54,014 bases of DNA. It comes from Candidatus Margulisiibacteriota bacterium. Lineage in GTDB: Bacteria; Margulisbacteria; Termititenacia; Termititenacales; Termititenacaceae. Location: contig JAISQA010000033.1 in the NCBI GenBank assembly GCA_031274525.1, positions 1 through 54,014 of the forward strand. The letters are read 5' to 3'. The notes under the pieces were generated by a model. It was not told the DNA's origin. It was given only the letters and a program-made list of their open reading frames with translations, and did no database searches. Of the stretch, positions 1,049 to 53,573 are shown one piece after another. Position numbers and translations under genes: made by a program. Position 1 is the first letter of the stretch; every line of letters begins with the position of its first letter.

Positions 1049-2323
1049 CTAGGCCGCCCGCACCAGGCCTTTTTGGGCCGCGGCAAGTAAATTTTTTAAA
1101 GCGTGGCCGCCGAAAATATTGTTTTTCTGTACCACGCGCAGCAGACGCAGCGCCCGCCGGTACTCGCCTTTGATCACGCAGGCCGCGCCCAGATAAAAAT
1201 GCAGCTCCGCCTGAAATTTACCCAATTCCTCCGCCGTGCAGAAAGCAAGGCCGTTCCGGGATTTGGTATAAACCAGATCCAGCATTTTATAGGCATCCGG
1301 CGTTTTCTGTTCCAGCAGCAGGACTTTGCCCAGAGTTAAATAAGGCCGCAGGTCATAGCCATCCTGCAGTCTGCTCAGCCAGGCATAGCAGTATTTTTCG
1401 GCCTGCACATAAAGTTCCTGCTTAATAAGCAGCGCCACAAAATTGGTATATATATAGCTTAACGGGATCAGGCCAAGCTGTTTTTTACCTTTTATATACA
1501 GCTCGATGGTTCTGTCCATATTTTCGATTAAAGCCCTGTCCGTGCAGGTTTCTAAACAGGAATAAGCTCTGGTATAATTAAATTGATTAACTACATCCTC
1601 CGGCTTTTTCCGCAGGGCTTTTTCCGCAATGTTAAAATTACGCAGATACCTGTTGTTGCGGTTGGCATCTTCATAACCATAATGCAGGACCCGCACATTG
1701 CTGTTATAAATTGTCCCTCCGTCTTTTTCGGAGATATGCTCGTGCAGAGCTTTTTTAAATTTAATCTTCCGGTGATTGCGAAAAAGCCGGCCGTGCGTGT
1801 GCACGTCTATGCCATTGAACGGCTGTTTTTGCCAGATCTCTTTTTCCGCGTCCGCCCGGCCGCAATTATAGATCCACGCCGTGTAGACATTTTTCTCTAC
1901 CGGTCCTCCGGCCAGAAATTTCTTGATAGTCCGGGCCGACTGTCTGGTCAGGGCCTCGTCATCGTCCAGCACCAGCACCCAGTCTTTGGTCGCATACTTG
2001 ATAGACTCATTGCGCGCTCTGGCAAAATCGTCGCGCCATTTATAAAAATAAATTTTGTCCGTGTATTTTTTGGCAATAGCCACCGTATTGTCCGTGGAGC
2101 CAGTGTCCACGATGATAATTTCGTCCACGACATTTTTCACCGAATCCAGACACAGCGCCAGATTGGCCGCCGCGTTGCGGACGATCATGCAGAGGGAGAG
2201 CGTGGGCAATTTACCGCCTCTCCGGCGCCGCGCCCGGACTTTAGCTCTGCGGGCAGCTGCGGAAATTTTGGCCGGGTTGCGCTTGTCTTTTTTGGATACA
2301 GTTTTTTTAGTTTTAACAGGCAC
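1049..2323 (-). CDS. Family 2 glycosyltransferase with TPR-like C-terminal half
   Basis: A GT-A fold glycosyltransferase of about 424 residues. After a very basic N-terminal segment (residues 1-38, many Lys/Arg) comes the start of the fold, LSLCMIVRN (42-50). The nucleotide-binding VDTGSTD motif is at 72-78 and the DDDE metal-binding acidic cluster at 120-123. The C-terminal half is rich in short helices of the tetratricopeptide type, as in GT2 proteins that begin SLCMIVKNE. The start is a GTG with GGGGGTAG upstream; a start at Met46 would remove the first strand, so I keep the long form. It stands alone on the minus strand, divergent from the glycan genes at 2410. The sugar donor and acceptor are not predictable. 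Confidence 0.8.
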   Translation of the reverse strand: MPVKTKKTVSKKDKRNPAKISAAARRAKVRARRRRGGKLPTLSLCMIVRNAAANLALCLDSVKNVVDEIIIVDTGSTDNTVAIAKKYTDKIYFYKWRDDFARARNESIKYATKDWVLVLDDDEALTRQSARTIKKFLAGGPVEKNVYTAWIYNCGRADAEKEIWQKQPFNGIDVHTHGRLFRNHRKIKFKKALHEHISEKDGGTIYNSNVRVLHYGYEDANRNNRYLRNFNIAEKALRKKPEDVVNQFNYTRAYSCLETCTDRALIENMDRTIELYIKGKKQLGLIPLSYIYTNFVALLIKQELYVQAEKYCYAWLSRLQDGYDLRPYLTLGKVLLLEQKTPDAYKMLDLVYTKSRNGLAFCTAEELGKFQAELHFYLGAACVIKGEYRRALRLLRVVQKNNIFGGHALKNLLAAAQKGLVRAA

Positions 2324-2409: not shown

Positions 2410-3258
2410 ATGAGCGGACAGGATTATCACATCTATGTAGCCCAGCACCACGACAATAATCCAGTCTATGCTCTTGTGTTTAAAGAAATTATCCTGCTGT
2501 TCCTGCATTCGTTTCACTCTCTGGGCCAAAACTGCAGTTTCACAGTCGATCCGCAGCTGGACAAAAAGCGGATAAATATAATTTTAGGCGCCGCTTTTAT
2601 TTTCCCCGCCGCTAAGTTTCAGGGTTTCCAGTATATTCCTTATCAGCTGGAACAATTAAGCGCCGCGGAAGGCTGGTACAGCAAGTACCCTGAATACAAA
2701 AATATTTTACAAAACGCCCGCGCGGTCTGGGATTATTCCGCCGCCAATATTGATTTTTTACGGGGTGAGGGCATTCCGGCCGGTTATCTGCCTATCGGCT
2801 ATCACGAAAAACTGGAACTTATTCCCCGTGCGGACCAGCAGGACATTGATATTTTATTCTACGGCAGCCTCAACGAGCGGCGCAGAAAAATTCTGATCCA
2901 GCTTATGGATAGAGGGCTCAAGGTTGAGGTGCTGCCCAACATTTATGGAACGCCGCGGGATAAATACATTGCCAGAGCCAAAATCGTGCTGAATATTCAC
3001 TATTATGAAACCAAAATATTTGAATCCGCCAGAATATCTTATCTGCTAAATAATAAAATTCTGGTCATCACCGAAAACTCCGTGGACAATCCCTATCCGG
3101 CAGTCGAGCTCATCAGCGTGCCGTATGAGCAGCTGGTCGAGGAATGTGTCCGGCGGCTGGCCGACTGGAACAGCTCGCTCCAAATCGCCGCCAGTAATTA
3201 CCAGCAGTTCAAAGAAAATTATCCGATGACCGGGTTTCTGGCAAAAGTCCTGATATAA
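2410..3258 (+). CDS. Putative glycosyltransferase, GT-B-like (282 aa)
   Basis: The protein has no clean signature, but its plan suits a GT-B glycosyltransferase. The N-terminal part contains short hydrophobic strands (INIILGAAFIF) and WDYSAANIDFL. The middle has DIDILFYGSLNERR, which resembles the LFYGS-type strand that opens the second Rossmann domain. The end includes ARAKIVLNIHYYET, followed by an acidic residue and SYLLNNKILVITE, the usual region for nucleotide-sugar binding and the switch helix. It begins the plus-strand glycan operon with the methyltransferase 28 bases downstream. A CgeB- or GT1-like relative is likely; specificity is unknown. The start codon has no ribosome-binding site (see promoter at 2374). 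Confidence 0.6.
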   Translation: MSGQDYHIYVAQHHDNNPVYALVFKEIILLFLHSFHSLGQNCSFTVDPQLDKKRINIILGAAFIFPAAKFQGFQYIPYQLEQLSAAEGWYSKYPEYKNILQNARAVWDYSAANIDFLRGEGIPAGYLPIGYHEKLELIPRADQQDIDILFYGSLNERRRKILIQLMDRGLKVEVLPNIYGTPRDKYIARAKIVLNIHYYETKIFESARISYLLNNKILVITENSVDNPYPAVELISVPYEQLVEECVRRLADWNSSLQIAASNYQQFKENYPMTGFLAKVLI

Positions 3259-3286: not shown

Positions 3287-3757
3287 ATGAGCGAAGCAAA
3301 ATTGCTAAAAGTGGATCTCTGCTGCGGTATCAGAAAACCGGAAGGTTTTGTCGGGGTGGATCATTTTCCCGGAGAGAATGTGGACCTTGTGGCCGATCTA
3401 AATGAGCGTTTCCCTTTTGAAGATAATTCTGTAGACCTGCTGCGGGCGCACGACGCCATCGAACATCTGCCGGACAGAATACACACCATGAATGAAATCT
3501 GGCGTGTCTGTAAACCCGGCGCCACGGCGGATATATTCGTCCCCTCCACCGACGGCCGGGGCGCGTTTCAGGATCCGACGCATGTCAGCTACTGGAACAT
3601 CAATTCTTTCATGTACTATTCGGTAGATTATCCGCAAACTCTGGAACTCTGCCGGAGATACGGCTTTCAGGGCGCGTTCCGGATCAAACAGATTTTTAAT
3701 ATCGGCGACGCCAGCGGCGTGGTGCATGTGCAGGCTGTGCTGGAAGCGGTTAAATAA
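3287..3757 (+). CDS. SAM-dependent methyltransferase, class I type 11 (156 aa)
   Basis: A short class I methyltransferase fold. Motif I is reduced to KVDLCCGIRKPEGFVGVD. The acidic end of strand 2 is VGVDHFPG, VDLVADLNERFPFEDNSVDLLRAHDAIEHL is the classic Methyltransf_11 segment, and EIWRVCKPGATADIFVPS is strand 5. It probably methylates a glycan or nucleotide-sugar intermediate, given its position between glycosyltransferases. The ATG follows a strong AGGGGGAG site. The last 70 bases are repeated almost perfectly at 6181-6250, on the far side of the next two genes. Confidence 0.8.
   Translation: MSEAKLLKVDLCCGIRKPEGFVGVDHFPGENVDLVADLNERFPFEDNSVDLLRAHDAIEHLPDRIHTMNEIWRVCKPGATADIFVPSTDGRGAFQDPTHVSYWNINSFMYYSVDYPQTLELCRRYGFQGAFRIKQIFNIGDASGVVHVQAVLEAVK
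3688..3757 (+). repeat. 70-bp direct repeat, copy 1 (end of methyltransferase gene)
   Basis: The final 70 bases of the methyltransferase gene, including its TAA. The copy at 6181-6250 differs by one base. The two copies bracket the phase-variable glycosyltransferase and the first DUF4143 ATPase. Confidence 0.95.
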
Positions 3758-3773: not shown

Positions 3774-4619
3774 ATGCGCTTGATTTCAATTACAGTCCTA
3801 AAAAATGAAGAAGATATTATCGAATCTTTTGTCAGATACCATGTTAATTTTATGGATCAAATGCTTATGCTGGACACCCACAGCACGGACGCCACTTTAG
3901 ATATATTAGCAAAACTCGCCGCGGAAGGTCTGCCTGTCCGCATCCTGAAAAAACCGCCCGCCGCCGCCTTTGAACAGGCGGAATGGACGAATGAGCTGCT
4001 GGCTCTGGCTGTGGGGCAATATCAGGCGGATATTGTGTTTCCTTTAGACGCGGATGAATTTGTTTTTTCCAGCGGCAAAAACAATAGAGAAACTTTAATT
4101 AAAAATATAGACTTAACTTCTCTCAACGTCTGCGTCTGGCAGACTTATATCCCGCAGCCGAACGACTGCGCTCAAGAACATTTTATTCCTAAAAAAATAA
4201 CAAATATCCGCCGCGCTGCTCTGGAAAGTTTTCACAAAATTATCTGTCCCGCAAATCTGGTCAGAAAATATTCTTTAAAACTAACCGCCGGTAATCATGA
4301 TGCCGTAGCCGCAGGTTCCGGCCAAAACCAGCTGAAATATTACAGGAGCGCTGTCCTAAAAATTGCGCACTACCCGATAAGGTCAGCTAATCAGCTTGCT
4401 AAAAAAATACTGACCGGCTGGCTGGCAAATCTAGCGCGCAGCAACCGCCCCAGCGGGGAGCTCTTTCATCAAAAAATTATTTTTGACAAATTGGCGCAGG
4501 GAGAGGCTGTTACGCCGGAGGATTGTACAGAACTGGCCCTAAGCTATGCCCTGACCAAGCCGGTACCCCCCCCCCGGACAGAATGTATTATGCAGCCCCT
4601 TAAATCTGGAATACTGTAA
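3774..4619 (+). CDS. Phase-variable family 2 glycosyltransferase, OFF-length (truncated) form
   Basis: Starts MRLISITVLKNEEDIIESF, the standard opening of the Glyco_tranf_2_4 group. It then has LMLDTHSTDATLD in place of DxxSxD and FPLDADEFVF as the metal-binding DxD. I use the ATG at 3774, where this motif begins, not the upstream in-frame ATG at 3726 inside the methyltransferase gene. As sequenced the frame runs through a C10 tract (4566-4575) and stops at 4619 after a meaningless tail (281 aa). With C9 (or C12) the frame would continue to the TAA at 4855-4857, adding about 92 residues that end in a coiled-coil-like helix and giving 360 residues. The truncated form keeps the whole GT-A core, so partial activity cannot be excluded. 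Confidence 0.8.
   Translation: MRLISITVLKNEEDIIESFVRYHVNFMDQMLMLDTHSTDATLDILAKLAAEGLPVRILKKPPAAAFEQAEWTNELLALAVGQYQADIVFPLDADEFVFSSGKNNRETLIKNIDLTSLNVCVWQTYIPQPNDCAQEHFIPKKITNIRRAALESFHKIICPANLVRKYSLKLTAGNHDAVAAGSGQNQLKYYRSAVLKIAHYPIRSANQLAKKILTGWLANLARSNRPSGELFHQKIIFDKLAQGEAVTPEDCTELALSYALTKPVPPPRTECIMQPLKSGIL
4566..4575 (+). repeat. C10 homopolymer, slipped-strand switch
   Basis: Ten consecutive C inside the glycosyltransferase gene. Upstream codons begin at positions divisible by three, while the downstream continuation reads in the frame starting at 4579 (one more than a multiple of three). Loss of one C joins them exactly. Confidence 0.85.
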
Positions 4620-4857
4620 GGATTTAATTGTCAAATATTTTCCCGAAAAACAACAGCAATTTTTAACAACTTTTTTACATTACGCTGAAGATCTGGCCTC
4701 TGGACACTCCGCGCTGGGCCGGCAAAATCTGCATTACATAAAGACCATCTCCGCAATTTCCCAAAAATTAAAAGACCGCTTCAACGAGCTGCAGGAAATT
4801 ATTCAGAAAAAAGATTTAGAAATTGAGCGTTTAAAAAATATTATTCCGGGCTTGTAA
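4579..4857 (+). other. Out-of-frame 3' part of the phase-variable glycosyltransferase
   Basis: Open in the frame offset by one base from the upstream gene, with no good start codon of its own. It encodes about 92 residues: NLEYCKDLIVKYFPEKQQQF, a middle part with HYAEDLASGHSALGR, and a C-terminal heptad-like helix (KLKDRFNELQEII, then KDLEIERLKNII). The amphipathic helix suggests oligomerisation or membrane contact. It is translated only when the C tract is 9 or 12 long. Confidence 0.75.
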
Positions 4858-4901
4858 AACTAACCGGGTGACAGCTTACAATGCTCAAGGTGTGAAACCT
4901 C

Positions 4902-4948
4902 TTGCCAGCTTTAACAATATTTACTAAAATGCAACAGCATTGCATTTT
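4902..4948 (+). promoter_or_regulatory. Promoter with palindromic operator for the DUF4143 ATPase gene
   Basis: TTGCCA (4902-4907), a 17-base spacer and TAAAAT (4925-4930) form a reasonable sigma70 promoter. A perfect inverted repeat overlaps the -10 box and start point: AAAATGCAA (4926-4934), spacer CAGCA, TTGCATTTT (4940-4948). The AAAATGCAA half-site resembles the units repeated in front of the second ATPase gene (9193-9299). Autoregulation is my inference. Confidence 0.5.
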
Positions 4949-4960
4949 GGGAAATAAATA

Positions 4961-6175
4961 ATGGATTATAAACCGCGCACCATCAGCAAAGTAATTCTCC
5001 GGGCCTCGGCTAACTTCAAGCTTATCCTGCTGACCGGCATGCGGCAGGTAGGGAAAACCACAACTCTGCTTAATTGCGGCACTAAAAAACGCCAGCACGT
5101 GACACTGGATAATCCCAAAGATTTAGCCCTGGCGCAAAAAGAACCGGAATTTTTCTTCCAGACCTACGAACCGCCGCTGCTGATCGATGAAATACAGCAT
5201 GTACCCTCTTTGTTTCCTTATCTAAAGATGCTGGCGGATAATTCGCCAAAGCGGGGGCTGGTCTGGATGACCGGCTCGCAGCAGTTTGAGTTAATGCAGG
5301 GTATATCCGAAAGTCTGGCCGGCCGCGTAATTATTTTGAATATGCTGGGATTTTCGCTTTACGAACGCGCCGGACTCGGCGCACAGCAAAAACCGTTTCT
5401 GCCCTCCGCGCGTTCGAGCGGAGCTCTAAATAAAAAAAATCTGCGCCAGACCTACAAAATTATCTGGCAGGGCGCGTTCCCGGACATTGTGGATAAACCG
5501 GCCAATCAGTGGGCGGGATTTTATGCGTCTTATGTAAAAACTTATATTGAGCGCGATGTCCGGCGCATAGTAAATATCGGCAATGAGGCAGATTTTCTGA
5601 AATTTTTAAGCGTGCTGGCCGCGCGGACAGCGCAGGAGCTCAATCTGGCTGACACCGCCCGCGACGCAGGTATCGCGCCCAACACCGCCAAAGCCTGGCT
5701 ATCTATTCTTGAGACATCCGGCCTTGTTTATCTTTTGAAGCCCTATTTCAAGAATATTTCTAAACGTTTTATCAAAAGGCCTAAGCTATATTTTATGGAC
5801 ACGGGGCTGTGCGCCTATCTCACGGAATGGAATACGCCGGAAGTGCTGGAAAAAGGCGCGATGAGCGGGGCTATTTTTGAAACTTTTGTCATAACCGAAA
5901 TCATAAAATCTTATCAGCATAACGGGCTGTTCCCCGCGCTTTACTATTATCGAGACAATGTCCAAACTGAAATTGATCTTTTGCTCGCCCAAAACGGCCT
6001 GCTGTATCCTATAGAAATCAAAAAAACTGCCAACCCGTCCAGAAACGACATATCCGCTTTTGAACAGCTGGCTAAAATCGGCGAAAAACCCGGATATGGC
6101 GCGCTGATCTGCCTGACCGACCGCGCCCGCCCGCTTACAGACAAAGCCAGCGCTATATCTATCTGGGATATTTAG
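4961..6175 (+). CDS. AAA_14 / DUF4143 ATPase (404 aa)
   Basis: N-terminal P-loop ATPase with Walker A GMRQVGKTT at 26-34, Walker B LLIDE at 73-77 and the sensor segment WMTGSQQF. A central winged-helix-like part (LADTARDAGIAPNTAKAWLSILE) follows. The C-terminal DUF4143 part contains ALYYYRDNVQTEIDLLL and PIEIKKT, which looks like a PD-(D/E)XK nuclease-fold core (D then E-x-K). Family members are very common in anaerobe genomes, often in many copies, and have no settled function. There is no clear Shine-Dalgarno. It sits between phase-variable glycan genes and within the 70-bp direct repeats. A second copy is at 7952 and a gutted one at 51836. Confidence 0.9.
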   Translation: MDYKPRTISKVILRASANFKLILLTGMRQVGKTTTLLNCGTKKRQHVTLDNPKDLALAQKEPEFFFQTYEPPLLIDEIQHVPSLFPYLKMLADNSPKRGLVWMTGSQQFELMQGISESLAGRVIILNMLGFSLYERAGLGAQQKPFLPSARSSGALNKKNLRQTYKIIWQGAFPDIVDKPANQWAGFYASYVKTYIERDVRRIVNIGNEADFLKFLSVLAARTAQELNLADTARDAGIAPNTAKAWLSILETSGLVYLLKPYFKNISKRFIKRPKLYFMDTGLCAYLTEWNTPEVLEKGAMSGAIFETFVITEIIKSYQHNGLFPALYYYRDNVQTEIDLLLAQNGLLYPIEIKKTANPSRNDISAFEQLAKIGEKPGYGALICLTDRARPLTDKASAISIWDI

Positions 6176-6180
6176 GCCGG

Positions 6181-6250
6181 ACAGATTTTTAATATCGGCG
6201 ACGCCAGCGGCGTGGTGCATGTGCAGGCTGTGCTGGAAGCGGTCAAATAA
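6181..6250 (+). repeat. 70-bp direct repeat, copy 2 (methyltransferase remnant)
   Basis: Matches the last 70 bases of the methyltransferase gene at 3688-3757 with one substitution. It starts six bases after the ATPase stop codon and its last bases overlap the end of the opposite-strand gene at 6243. It encodes the orphan C-terminus FNIGDASGVVHVQAVLEAVK without the rest of the gene. Confidence 0.95.
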
Positions 6251-7138
6251 TTATTTGCTTGCACACTTCCAGAAAATATTCCGCTCTTTTTTGGGAAGTA
6301 TGATACAGCAATAAATGTTCATGTCCTCTCCGGGCAATTTTTTCTACTTCATCAAGATGTTCAAGATAATAAGCCAGCTTATCCTCAAATTCCTCTAAAG
6401 AGGCAAAAGTCACATAACTAACTCCGTCTGTAAAAGGATAGGGAATTTCAATATCCAGTTTCTGGGTAAATAGCATAGCGCGGGCAGCCAGGATTTCCCA
6501 AAATCTAGCGCAGTCATACCCGGAGCCCATCACATTGACCGATATCAGGCTGCGCTGAAGCAATGTTCTATATACGGGATTTATCCTGTACAAACCGGAG
6601 CCGTCATAAACCATTTCCTTTGTATTGCCAGAAATAATCTGCGGATCTTTGCGTGCTTGTAAACGCAAATAAATCGACATACGCAGCGGATTGGCACACA
6701 TGTTGGCAAGAAAGGAAATTTTTATATCTCTGGCAGAGGGACTACCCCCCCCCCCCCCCCGGAAAAACGCTTTTCCGCGCCAAAAGGCAGGGGATAGACG
6801 GTTTTATTTGGGCCGTATAAACGAGAATTATATTCTCTCTTAAAAATCAATCTGGCAGAAATCTCTGGATTTTCCAAAATTTGGAAATCACTGCCATCCA
6901 CATAAACTTTTTGCGGATTAATAATTTTATCCAGCAAATTATATTTTACGCCCTGATTGGAGCCGATAATTATTATATCTGCGTTCTCCGCCTGTTTTAG
7001 CAACTCTTTTTCCGGAAAAGATACGCCATAATTACTATTCTCCGCACAATAAACTTCGTTACCGTTTTGCGTCAGGCCCTCAATCAGTGTGGCTGTAAGA
7101 TAATCATAAATCGGCGTATTGAGATAAACTATTTTCAT
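6243..7138 (-). CDS. Phase-variable CgeB-like glycosyltransferase, OFF (frame broken at a G16 tract)
   Basis: Two abutting minus-strand frames form one gene. Residues 1-126 (7138 to 6761) begin MKIVYLNTPIYDYLTATLIEGL and include ADIIIIGSNQG. The second half (6743 to 6243) holds the C-terminal CgeB/Glyco_trans_1_2 region, with INPVYRTLLQRSLISVNVMG, FWEILAARAMLFTQ and a last helix YHTSQKRAEYFLEVC. They are split by 16 G on the coding strand: as written, translation passes into GGGGGVVPLPEI and stops at 6722. With 17 G (298 aa) or 14 G (297 aa) the halves join. The start has AAGGAG eleven bases upstream. It lies downstream of the glycosyltransferase at 7217 and is probably co-transcribed with it. 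Confidence 0.8.
6745..6760 (-). repeat. G16 homopolymer (C16 on the plus strand), slipped-strand switch
   Basis: Sixteen identical bases inside a coding region. The upstream and downstream frames of the glycosyltransferase join if the tract length leaves remainder 2 on division by three (14 or 17). Exact length is the least reliable part of any assembly at such a tract. Confidence 0.85.
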
Positions 7139-7216
7139 TTCTAGCGCGCTCCTTGAAATGTTGCAAGTATATTTTATGTCAGCCTAATCTGCGGCTCAAG
7201 ACCGGAAGTATTTAAT

Positions 7217-7939
7217 TCAGCCCTGCCGCGCTTCAAACTCTCTGCGCTGACGGCTGATTTCCGGGGCATATACGGTCTGGAATATTCTGCTCTGTTCAGC
7301 ATAATGCGCCAGGCTAGGCACGCCACATTCGTGCAAAGCCCAGGAACAAAGCTGCGCCGGTACAACAGTCCTGTATCCGGCCTTATAAAATTCCAGACAT
7401 TGCGACGCATCATAAAAATGCCAGTCCTGAAATAAATCTTCCCGCCAGAATAAATCATATTGAGTGGCCATTAACAAACCGTCAACGACAATAACTTCTC
7501 TGTACTTTTCCGTGTGTGTGTGTGTGTGTGGGGGGGGGGGGGGATGATTTAATTCACTAAGGAAGCCCCGGTGTGAGTCAATGACACGACCATAAGGATA
7601 TCGGGATTCCCACCAGCAGCCCGATTCCGGCAAATTCTGCGCCCCGATCAGGCCGATTAAACCGATATCCTGTTCGGCAAATAAGCGCAATATTCTTTGC
7701 ATAAAATATGGATAAAAAAGCAAAACATCCTGATGCAAATAAATCTTATACTTAGCATCTGATTCCCGCTGCGCCTGATTGTAGCCGGCGCACATAGACG
7801 CCGCGCCGCGCACCGCCCTATATTCCACTGTCATTTCAGGAGGCGTCGCCAGTAAAGATAAAAAATGCAGACACTTCCGGTAAAGCGCTTCGTTATTAAC
7901 GCAGGTTATGAAACATATTTTATTTTTATCTAAAACCAT
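7217..7939 (-). CDS. StrF-type glycosyltransferase (Glyco_tranf_2_5), phase-variable, ON
   Basis: The protein reads KICFITCVNNEALYRKCL, then AASMCAGYNQA, YLHQDVLL (likely the DxD-type site), IGLIGLIGAQNLPESGCWWES, VVDGLLMATQYDLFWRED, and DWHFYDASQCLEFYKAGY. These are the consecutive blocks of the StrF-like GT-A family. Residues encoded by the mixed repeat (HPPPPPHTHTHTE) fall in the loop before VVDGLLMATQ, a tolerant position. All 240 residues are in frame here, so this gene is ON. Slippage of the G tract, or of the GT tract by a number of units not divisible by three, would break it. It starts 12 bases after the stop of the ATPase at 7952, suggesting co-transcription. Confidence 0.85.
   Translation of the reverse strand: MVLDKNKICFITCVNNEALYRKCLHFLSLLATPPEMTVEYRAVRGAASMCAGYNQAQRESDAKYKIYLHQDVLLFYPYFMQRILRLFAEQDIGLIGLIGAQNLPESGCWWESRYPYGRVIDSHRGFLSELNHPPPPPHTHTHTEKYREVIVVDGLLMATQYDLFWREDLFQDWHFYDASQCLEFYKAGYRTVVPAQLCSWALHECGVPSLAHYAEQSRIFQTVYAPEISRQRREFEARQG
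7512..7543 (-). repeat. Compound microsatellite (GT)9 followed by a G run, in coding sequence
   Basis: Nine GT units (7512-7529) run into a G14 run (7530-7543). Both parts can slip independently, giving two ways to shift the frame of the glycosyltransferase. The present combined length keeps the frame open. Confidence 0.9.
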
Positions 7940-52847: not shown

Positions 52848-53480
52848 TTACACCATTCTGGCGAGGCGAAATCCGAAGTTGTGGTAGGGCATGTTAGGGA
52901 AGTTGACGTTCATACTGCTGTCGCGGTTAGGAGTGCCATAATTGAGCATATTTGGATAATCACAACTGATCAAGTAATACTCATAAGTACGATGATCACC
53001 ATAATTAAACCATACCCATTCACGCTGAGAATGATATTCCAGTTTGCCATCAAAATAAGAGTGCTGCCATTCATCAATTTCCGGTAGGCGGTAAACTTTT
53101 TTCCTGTCCATAGCGTATATTAGCTGATAAAGGAGGCAATGTTCATCATCAATACTGGTGGTATAACCAAAGTCGTTCATTTCGGCCTTTACTGCAGCCG
53201 GAACATCTGAGGCAGAGTGCGTTTGCCTAACACACGTTCTAACGGCCTCATACCAGGTAATTTTAGTCGATGTCAAAGAACTTGATATCCAAAGCGTTCC
53301 ACGCATCAACTTTTGAATGGCATCCCGTACGGCCTTGGCCGAGGGATACTGGGCATCGGTGGACGAAGCGGATAGACTGGTGGTTTTGTTGCTGACGTCT
53401 TCTTTCCTGTCCAGCGCAGCTTCCATGTCGCTGGCGTTCACCTGGTTTCCCGCGGCTATTCCTGAATATTTTTCTGCCAT
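52848..53480 (-). CDS. Tail-fibre-like protein with C-type-lectin/SUMF1-like C-terminus (210 aa)
   Basis: I start at the ATG at 53480 (MAEKYSGIAAGNQVNASDME). The N-terminal module ALDRKEDVSNKTTSLSASSTDAQYPSAKAVRDAI is typical of tail-fibre and baseplate-attached proteins. The C-terminal 150 residues look like a CLec/formylglycine-enzyme fold: ITWYEAVRTCVRQ, VYRLPEIDEWQHSYF, EWVWFNYGD, and the end FGFRLARMV. Before that end the sequence is rich in Asn, Tyr and Ser (NYGTPNRDSSMNVNFPNMPYHN), many encoded AAC, as in targets of diversity-generating retroelements. No reverse transcriptase is in the window. Confidence 0.7.
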   Translation of the reverse strand: MAEKYSGIAAGNQVNASDMEAALDRKEDVSNKTTSLSASSTDAQYPSAKAVRDAIQKLMRGTLWISSSLTSTKITWYEAVRTCVRQTHSASDVPAAVKAEMNDFGYTTSIDDEHCLLYQLIYAMDRKKVYRLPEIDEWQHSYFDGKLEYHSQREWVWFNYGDHRTYEYYLISCDYPNMLNYGTPNRDSSMNVNFPNMPYHNFGFRLARMV

Positions 53481-53573
53481 AATGCACCATCTCCCTCTCA
53501 ATATAGATTGAAATCCAGCCGGAACATCGGGGGCAGATTGCGTTTGCCCAACACACGTTCTAACGGACTCATA

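Follow-up and report, generated by a model that had tools for sequence, protein, structure and literature searches.

The stretch of DNA analysed here, referred to as the window, is 54,014 nucleotides long and makes up the entire contig C66 of a 1.6 Mb genome (G000; 92 contigs, 92.4% complete). The genome is taken to belong to the family Termititenacaceae (the Candidatus Termititenax family) of the phylum Candidatus Margulisiibacteriota. Members of this family live in termite guts, attached to protists or spirochetes, and are not vertebrate pathogens. Three glycosyltransferase genes near the left end of the window, here called GT1, GT2 and GT3, carry long simple-sequence tracts within their coding regions. 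These genes and their neighbours are arranged as follows.

1049–2323, minus strand: GT2-family glycosyltransferase without a tract (Pfam)
2410–3258, plus strand: conserved neighbour with no Pfam match; orthologues in the sister genomes G004 and G006, order kept
3287–3757, plus strand: SAM-dependent methyltransferase; a 75% identical orthologue adjoins GT3 in G004
3774–4619, plus strand: GT1 pre-tract frame, GT2-family glycosyltransferase (PF13704); frame lost at the C10 tract, stop at 4619
4566–4575, plus strand: C10 tract in GT1 (run scan)
4576–4857, plus strand: GT1 tail, open for 93 codons in the +1 frame and resembling the C-terminal end of a G010 homologue that has no tract
4961–6175, plus strand: AAA_14-DUF4143 ATPase between GT1 and GT2 (Pfam)
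6181–6250, plus strand: 70-bp direct copy of the methyltransferase 3' end (3688–3757), with one mismatch
6243–6743, minus strand: second half of GT2, past the tract, open over 166 codons in another frame; Glyco_trans_1_2, PF13524 (frames, Pfam)
6745–6760, minus strand: G16 tract on the GT2 coding strand (C16 on the plus strand; run scan)
6722–7138, minus strand: GT2 pre-tract frame, the N-terminal half, 126 amino acids ahead of the tract (frame reading)
7217–7939, minus strand: GT3, intact in-frame glycosyltransferase, PF13712 (Pfam, frame reading)
7512–7543, minus strand: compound tract in GT3, (GT)9G14 on the plus strand and C14(AC)9 on the coding strand, encoding ..HPPPPPHTHTHT..

The first of the three genes, GT1, extends for 264 codons before its tract, and the original frame stops 13 codons past C10. 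The pre-tract part matches PF13704 above the curated cut-off (E=1.2e-13, residues 10–102). A homologue in another genome of the phylum, G010, is continuous and lacks the tract; it shares 40% identity with pre-tract GT1, and its C-terminus is similar to the displaced GT1 tail (local score 72, against 25.5 ± 4.7 for shuffled sequences, with 0 of 2000 as high). Consequently, the tract lies inside one ancestral gene. The frameshift removes only the 93-residue tail, and the out-of-frame product retains the PF13704 catalytic domain (GT-A). The initial annotation had proposed up to eight ON/OFF combinations; since the "off" product of GT1 keeps an intact catalytic domain, a clean ON/OFF at this gene, and with it the full set of eight, is uncertain.

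GT2 reads from 7138 on the minus strand, and the original frame ends at 6722, past G16. The post-tract half matches PF13524 above the curated cut-off (E=1.2e-15), and the chance of an open frame as long as its 166 codons is about 3e-4. As assembled, GT2 is predicted to be off, its donor-binding domain being lost, and the loss of PF13524 suggests that switching would yield a changed product.

GT3, in turn, is open through C14(AC)9 and reads as on in the assembled sequence, with a PF13712 match across the gene above the curated cut-off (E=4.2e-74). Its protein matches Candidatus Termititenax persephonae (G004) at 57% identity, and the orthologue in a second sister species, G006, is 62% identical. 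Neither orthologue contains the tract, which adds six residues (the HPPPPPHTHTHT region) in a loop; the GT3 switch thus shows no long-term conservation. No sequence match to GT3 was found among solved structures. The AlphaFold model is moderate (pLDDT 72.5), and the tract loop falls within an unreliable segment (100–144) of very low confidence, which is compatible with a tolerated flexible loop. Overall, tract positions and lengths agree with the initial annotation, and Pfam assigns all three genes to glycosyltransferases. Frame reading likewise recovers the remainder of GT1 and GT2 in another frame past the tract and an open frame in GT3.

The three tracts are not chance runs. Apart from them, the longest runs in the window are 6 for G/C and 8 for A/T. 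Run lengths are bimodal in 138 kb of the same genome, a sample that consists of the window plus 14 tract loci and is therefore biased towards tracts: it contains 331 G/C runs of length 4, 61 of length 5 and 6 of length 6, none is 7 or 8 long, and 18 have lengths of 9–16. A first-order model of the 1.6 Mb genome predicts roughly 3 G/C runs of at least 10 and about 0.01 of at least 14, versus 2 of the latter in the window alone; runs of at least 12 are far above chance expectation. Each of the three genes therefore combines a longer-than-chance coding-region repeat, whose unit is no multiple of three, with coding sequence that resumes past the tract, in another frame for GT1 and GT2 and in frame for GT3. 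This combination is expected of a translational phase-variable gene.

The local gene order provides information on the history of the region. In G004, the order is conserved protein, methyltransferase, GT3, p9303, trmH and argD, and G006 is similar, with a 32-residue GT1 fragment beside GT3. In the window, GT1, the AAA_14-DUF4143 ATPase and GT2 sit between the methyltransferase and GT3, and the 70-bp copies at 3688–3757 and 6181–6250 mark an inserted block spanning GT1 and the ATPase. At the opposite end of the contig (53901–54014) lies an (AGTTGTG)16 heptamer array. An identical array opens contig C30 of the same genome in the same orientation (positions 57–133, L255), so the two contigs are probably neighbours broken at the repeat. 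The array is located 400 nt upstream of a gene (52848–53501, minus strand) whose protein resembles the TAALNTKEQV..SSSTDDQYPSAKAV family and which has no G/C tract; relatives of this family in G004 (L196, L217, L219) have C tracts upstream.

Apart from the fragment in G006, no close relative of GT1 or GT2 was found in the seven sister genomes. Both genes are accessory and currently out of frame, as would be expected of decaying pseudogenes, recently inactivated, in which long tracts chanced to grow. However, the tract is the sole lesion in each of them, and the downstream frames are open and either coding-like or homologous. Random decay, moreover, is not expected to give three close genes with one type of tract, nor the family-wide pattern described below. 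A pseudogene origin of GT1 and GT2 is accordingly regarded as unlikely.

The initial annotation had described the three genes as an island. They do not stand in isolation, as they form part of a genome-wide and family-wide set of tracts. The genome itself contains 14 tracts of G≥10, and the seven sister genomes contain 5–40 each. The density in the eight family genomes is 5–27 per Mb (median 12.2), versus a median of 0.9 and a maximum of 5.6 per Mb in 30 genomes from elsewhere in the phylum. Runs of A≥10 are rare in the family (0–4 per genome), which rules out general homopolymer growth. Loss of MutS can likewise be dismissed as the cause of the tracts, since the protein is complete (domains I–V).

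Nearly all tracts of the family were inspected together with their flanking sequence. Within genes, the hosts in the present genome include the three window glycosyltransferases and a rhamnosyltransferase; glycosyltransferase genes account for 4 of the 7 confident intragenic cases. Hosts in relatives include UDP-galactopyranose mutase (GLF), FkbM methyltransferases, and GT2, GT4 and GT32-like genes. An HsdS specificity gene (L185, G002:C102) has its two target-recognition domains separated by C15, is in frame as assembled, and may confer a phase-variable methylome. At L033 (G000:C15, tract 3524–3539), an HTH_3 N-terminal part and a Bro-N part lie in different frames across C16. A tract at the junction of TetR and outer-membrane efflux (OEP) sequences occurs in two species, with lengths of 15 (out of frame) and 12 (in frame). 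Between genes, tracts are found upstream of GT11, GT2, GT32-like and FkbM genes and of large lipoprotein families. In G004, four paralogous genes in a row (L216, contig C40) each have C11–C12 located 42–52 nt upstream (tracts at 2040, 4509, 6347 and 8018). With ten or more long-tract loci and a bias towards surface functions, the genome of the window has the features of what is termed a phasome.

Homopolymers are error-prone, and it could be argued that the tracts of the window reflect assembly or sequencing error, the true lengths being in frame and fixed. A few runs at contig ends in the family (up to C77) are clear artefacts. However, a one-base error does not create a 16-base tract, and a hypermutable tract persists even where its exact length is wrong. 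Tracts also occur inside the contigs of eight separate assemblies, and at orthologous positions their lengths differ between family species while the flanks are intact. An explanation by error is therefore considered very unlikely. An indirect sign of tract instability is that a contig ends within 80 bp of 56 of the 177 tracts of at least 10, compared with an expected 1.7%; these breaks fit reads disagreeing in length, although amplification or sequencing stutter could equally cause them.

Upstream tracts are directional. A gene starts no more than 350 nt from 71 of the tracts; C lies on the sense strand of that gene in 58 of these and on the other strand in 13 (p about 6e-8, a value inflated by paralogues). 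Two classes of upstream tract can be distinguished. In the first, recognized by eye in G003, G004, G006, G007 and the present genome, the tract lies ahead of lipoprotein genes and occupies a promoter spacer, TTGACT-xx-[C]n-xx-TATAAT. The spacer on contig C26 of the present genome reads TTGACT-CG-C11-AGC-TATAAT (16 bp), and that in G003 reads TTGACT-AA-C14-T-TATAAT (17 bp). A tract between the −35 and −10 boxes, about 16–18 bp apart, is the arrangement expected for promoter-spacer phase variation; it is present at these loci and not at the three window genes. Poly-C tracts in promoter spacers, of the porA/opc type, are likewise familiar from Neisseria. In the second class, a promoter and a ribosome site precede a short leader ORF, for example ATGAATAATTATTACTTAACAGTTA[C]n, whose copies differ by synonymous changes and stand before non-homologous genes. 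The encoded peptides follow the consensus M-x-N-x-[YC]-L-T-V-T-PPP, MKKFLNLRSVN-PPP and others, and poly-C provides the ninth or later codons. Some of the tracts are immediately followed by a hairpin, TTTTTGGCGTA..TACGCCAAAAA; stems of at least 9 bp occur at 15 of 131 tracts, compared with 2 after shuffling. This palindrome was not found within the window. The loci are listed below.

Poly-C between TTGACT-like and TATAAT-like boxes: L036 (G000:C26), L132, L135, L140, L154 (upstream of a GT32-like gene), L171, L202, L239
Leader-ORF loci, among others: L034 (G000:C23), L136, L138, L176, L184, L204, L125, L159, L131
Hairpin TTTTTGGCGTA..TACGCCAAAAA next to C tracts, among others: L031, L172, L198, L200, L204, L217–L219, L221

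Fusion of every leader ORF with the gene behind it in one of the tract phases was considered and mostly rejected, as long fusions arise in only about six cases. Since most leader ORFs fuse in no phase, a role in attenuation or coupling is a proposal only. Leader ORF, poly-C and frequent hairpin could tentatively be viewed as a recurrent cassette placed ahead of many surface or secreted-type genes that are not related to one another. It would act as a phase-variable attenuator, in contrast to a simple switch of frame or promoter: the length of the tract would set where leader translation ends and hence downstream expression, and the glycosyltransferase genes of the window would represent the translational branch of the same system. 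The cassette is not known to match any described system, and a leader-ORF class with a following hairpin is not known from Neisseria. The leader-ORF cassettes are the most novel lead of the analysis.

The directionality of upstream tracts also bears on whether they could have grown neutrally, driven by mutational bias or inefficient repair and not by selection for switching. Intergenic tracts are numerous and tract density varies strongly among sister genomes, in agreement with neutral growth. On the other hand, MutS is complete, A/T runs are unexpanded, upstream tracts are oriented and lie within promoter spacers or leader ORFs, and glycosyltransferase genes make up 4 of the 7 intragenic cases given above. 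Neutral growth is quite unlikely to account for this pattern.

The best explanation, and a probable one, is that the three adjacent glycosyltransferase genes are slipped-strand contingency loci within a family-wide tract system. Polymerase slippage in the G/C tracts, and in GT3 also in the AC repeats, would add or remove bases. The shifted frame would cause individual cells to make or lack the full enzyme, and surface-glycan types would be mixed across the population. GT1, as assembled, would be expected to produce an intact GT-A domain with a replaced tail. At the level of the family, the system would combine intragenic translational switches with promoter-spacer switches and with tracts that lie in short leader ORFs. 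Slippage in living cells, the resulting change in glycans and any benefit from it are inferred from this arrangement, and the antigenic or phage-evasion role suggested by the initial annotation may be one such benefit. The annotation was right in kind in describing slipped-strand phase-variable glycosyltransferases, and the family-wide data strengthen that description; it was too clean with regard to GT1 and too narrow in describing an island.

No report of phase variation in Margulisbacteria or Termititenax was found in the literature searched. What is new is the place, a bacterial family for which that literature has no such report; the proposed switch itself is of a known type. All family members sampled have tract-rich genomes, and the family consists of uncultured symbionts that seem not to be pathogens. 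If the explanation is correct, this would suggest that attachment to protists or spirochetes that change as partners, or pressure from phages in the gut of termites, selects for the same bet-hedging as animal immunity does.

The putative switches of the window would work in the manner of the contingency loci, translational and based on G/C tracts, that are known from Campylobacter, Neisseria and Helicobacter (PMC6321876, PMC5084427, PMC8295292). Campylobacter jejuni possesses homopolymeric G/C-tract contingency loci and shares with the present family long G/C tracts within and between genes, a bias towards surface glycans and many loci per genome (PMC6321876, PMC8355987). In contrast to C. jejuni, the present case concerns an organism of an unrelated lineage (Margulisiibacteriota) that is not a known pathogen, in which MutS is present and tracts also occur in promoter spacers and leader ORFs. 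In Haemophilus and Helicobacter, simple repeats similarly switch the frame of glycosyltransferase genes and of genes for lipopolysaccharide, but the repeats of Haemophilus, unlike the tracts described here, are mainly tetranucleotides (PMC2651432, PMC8295292); no relationship of these sequences to GT1–GT3 emerged from the analysis. Translational tracts are also a feature shared with the phase-variable genes of Neisseria (PMC5084427, PMC5320596).
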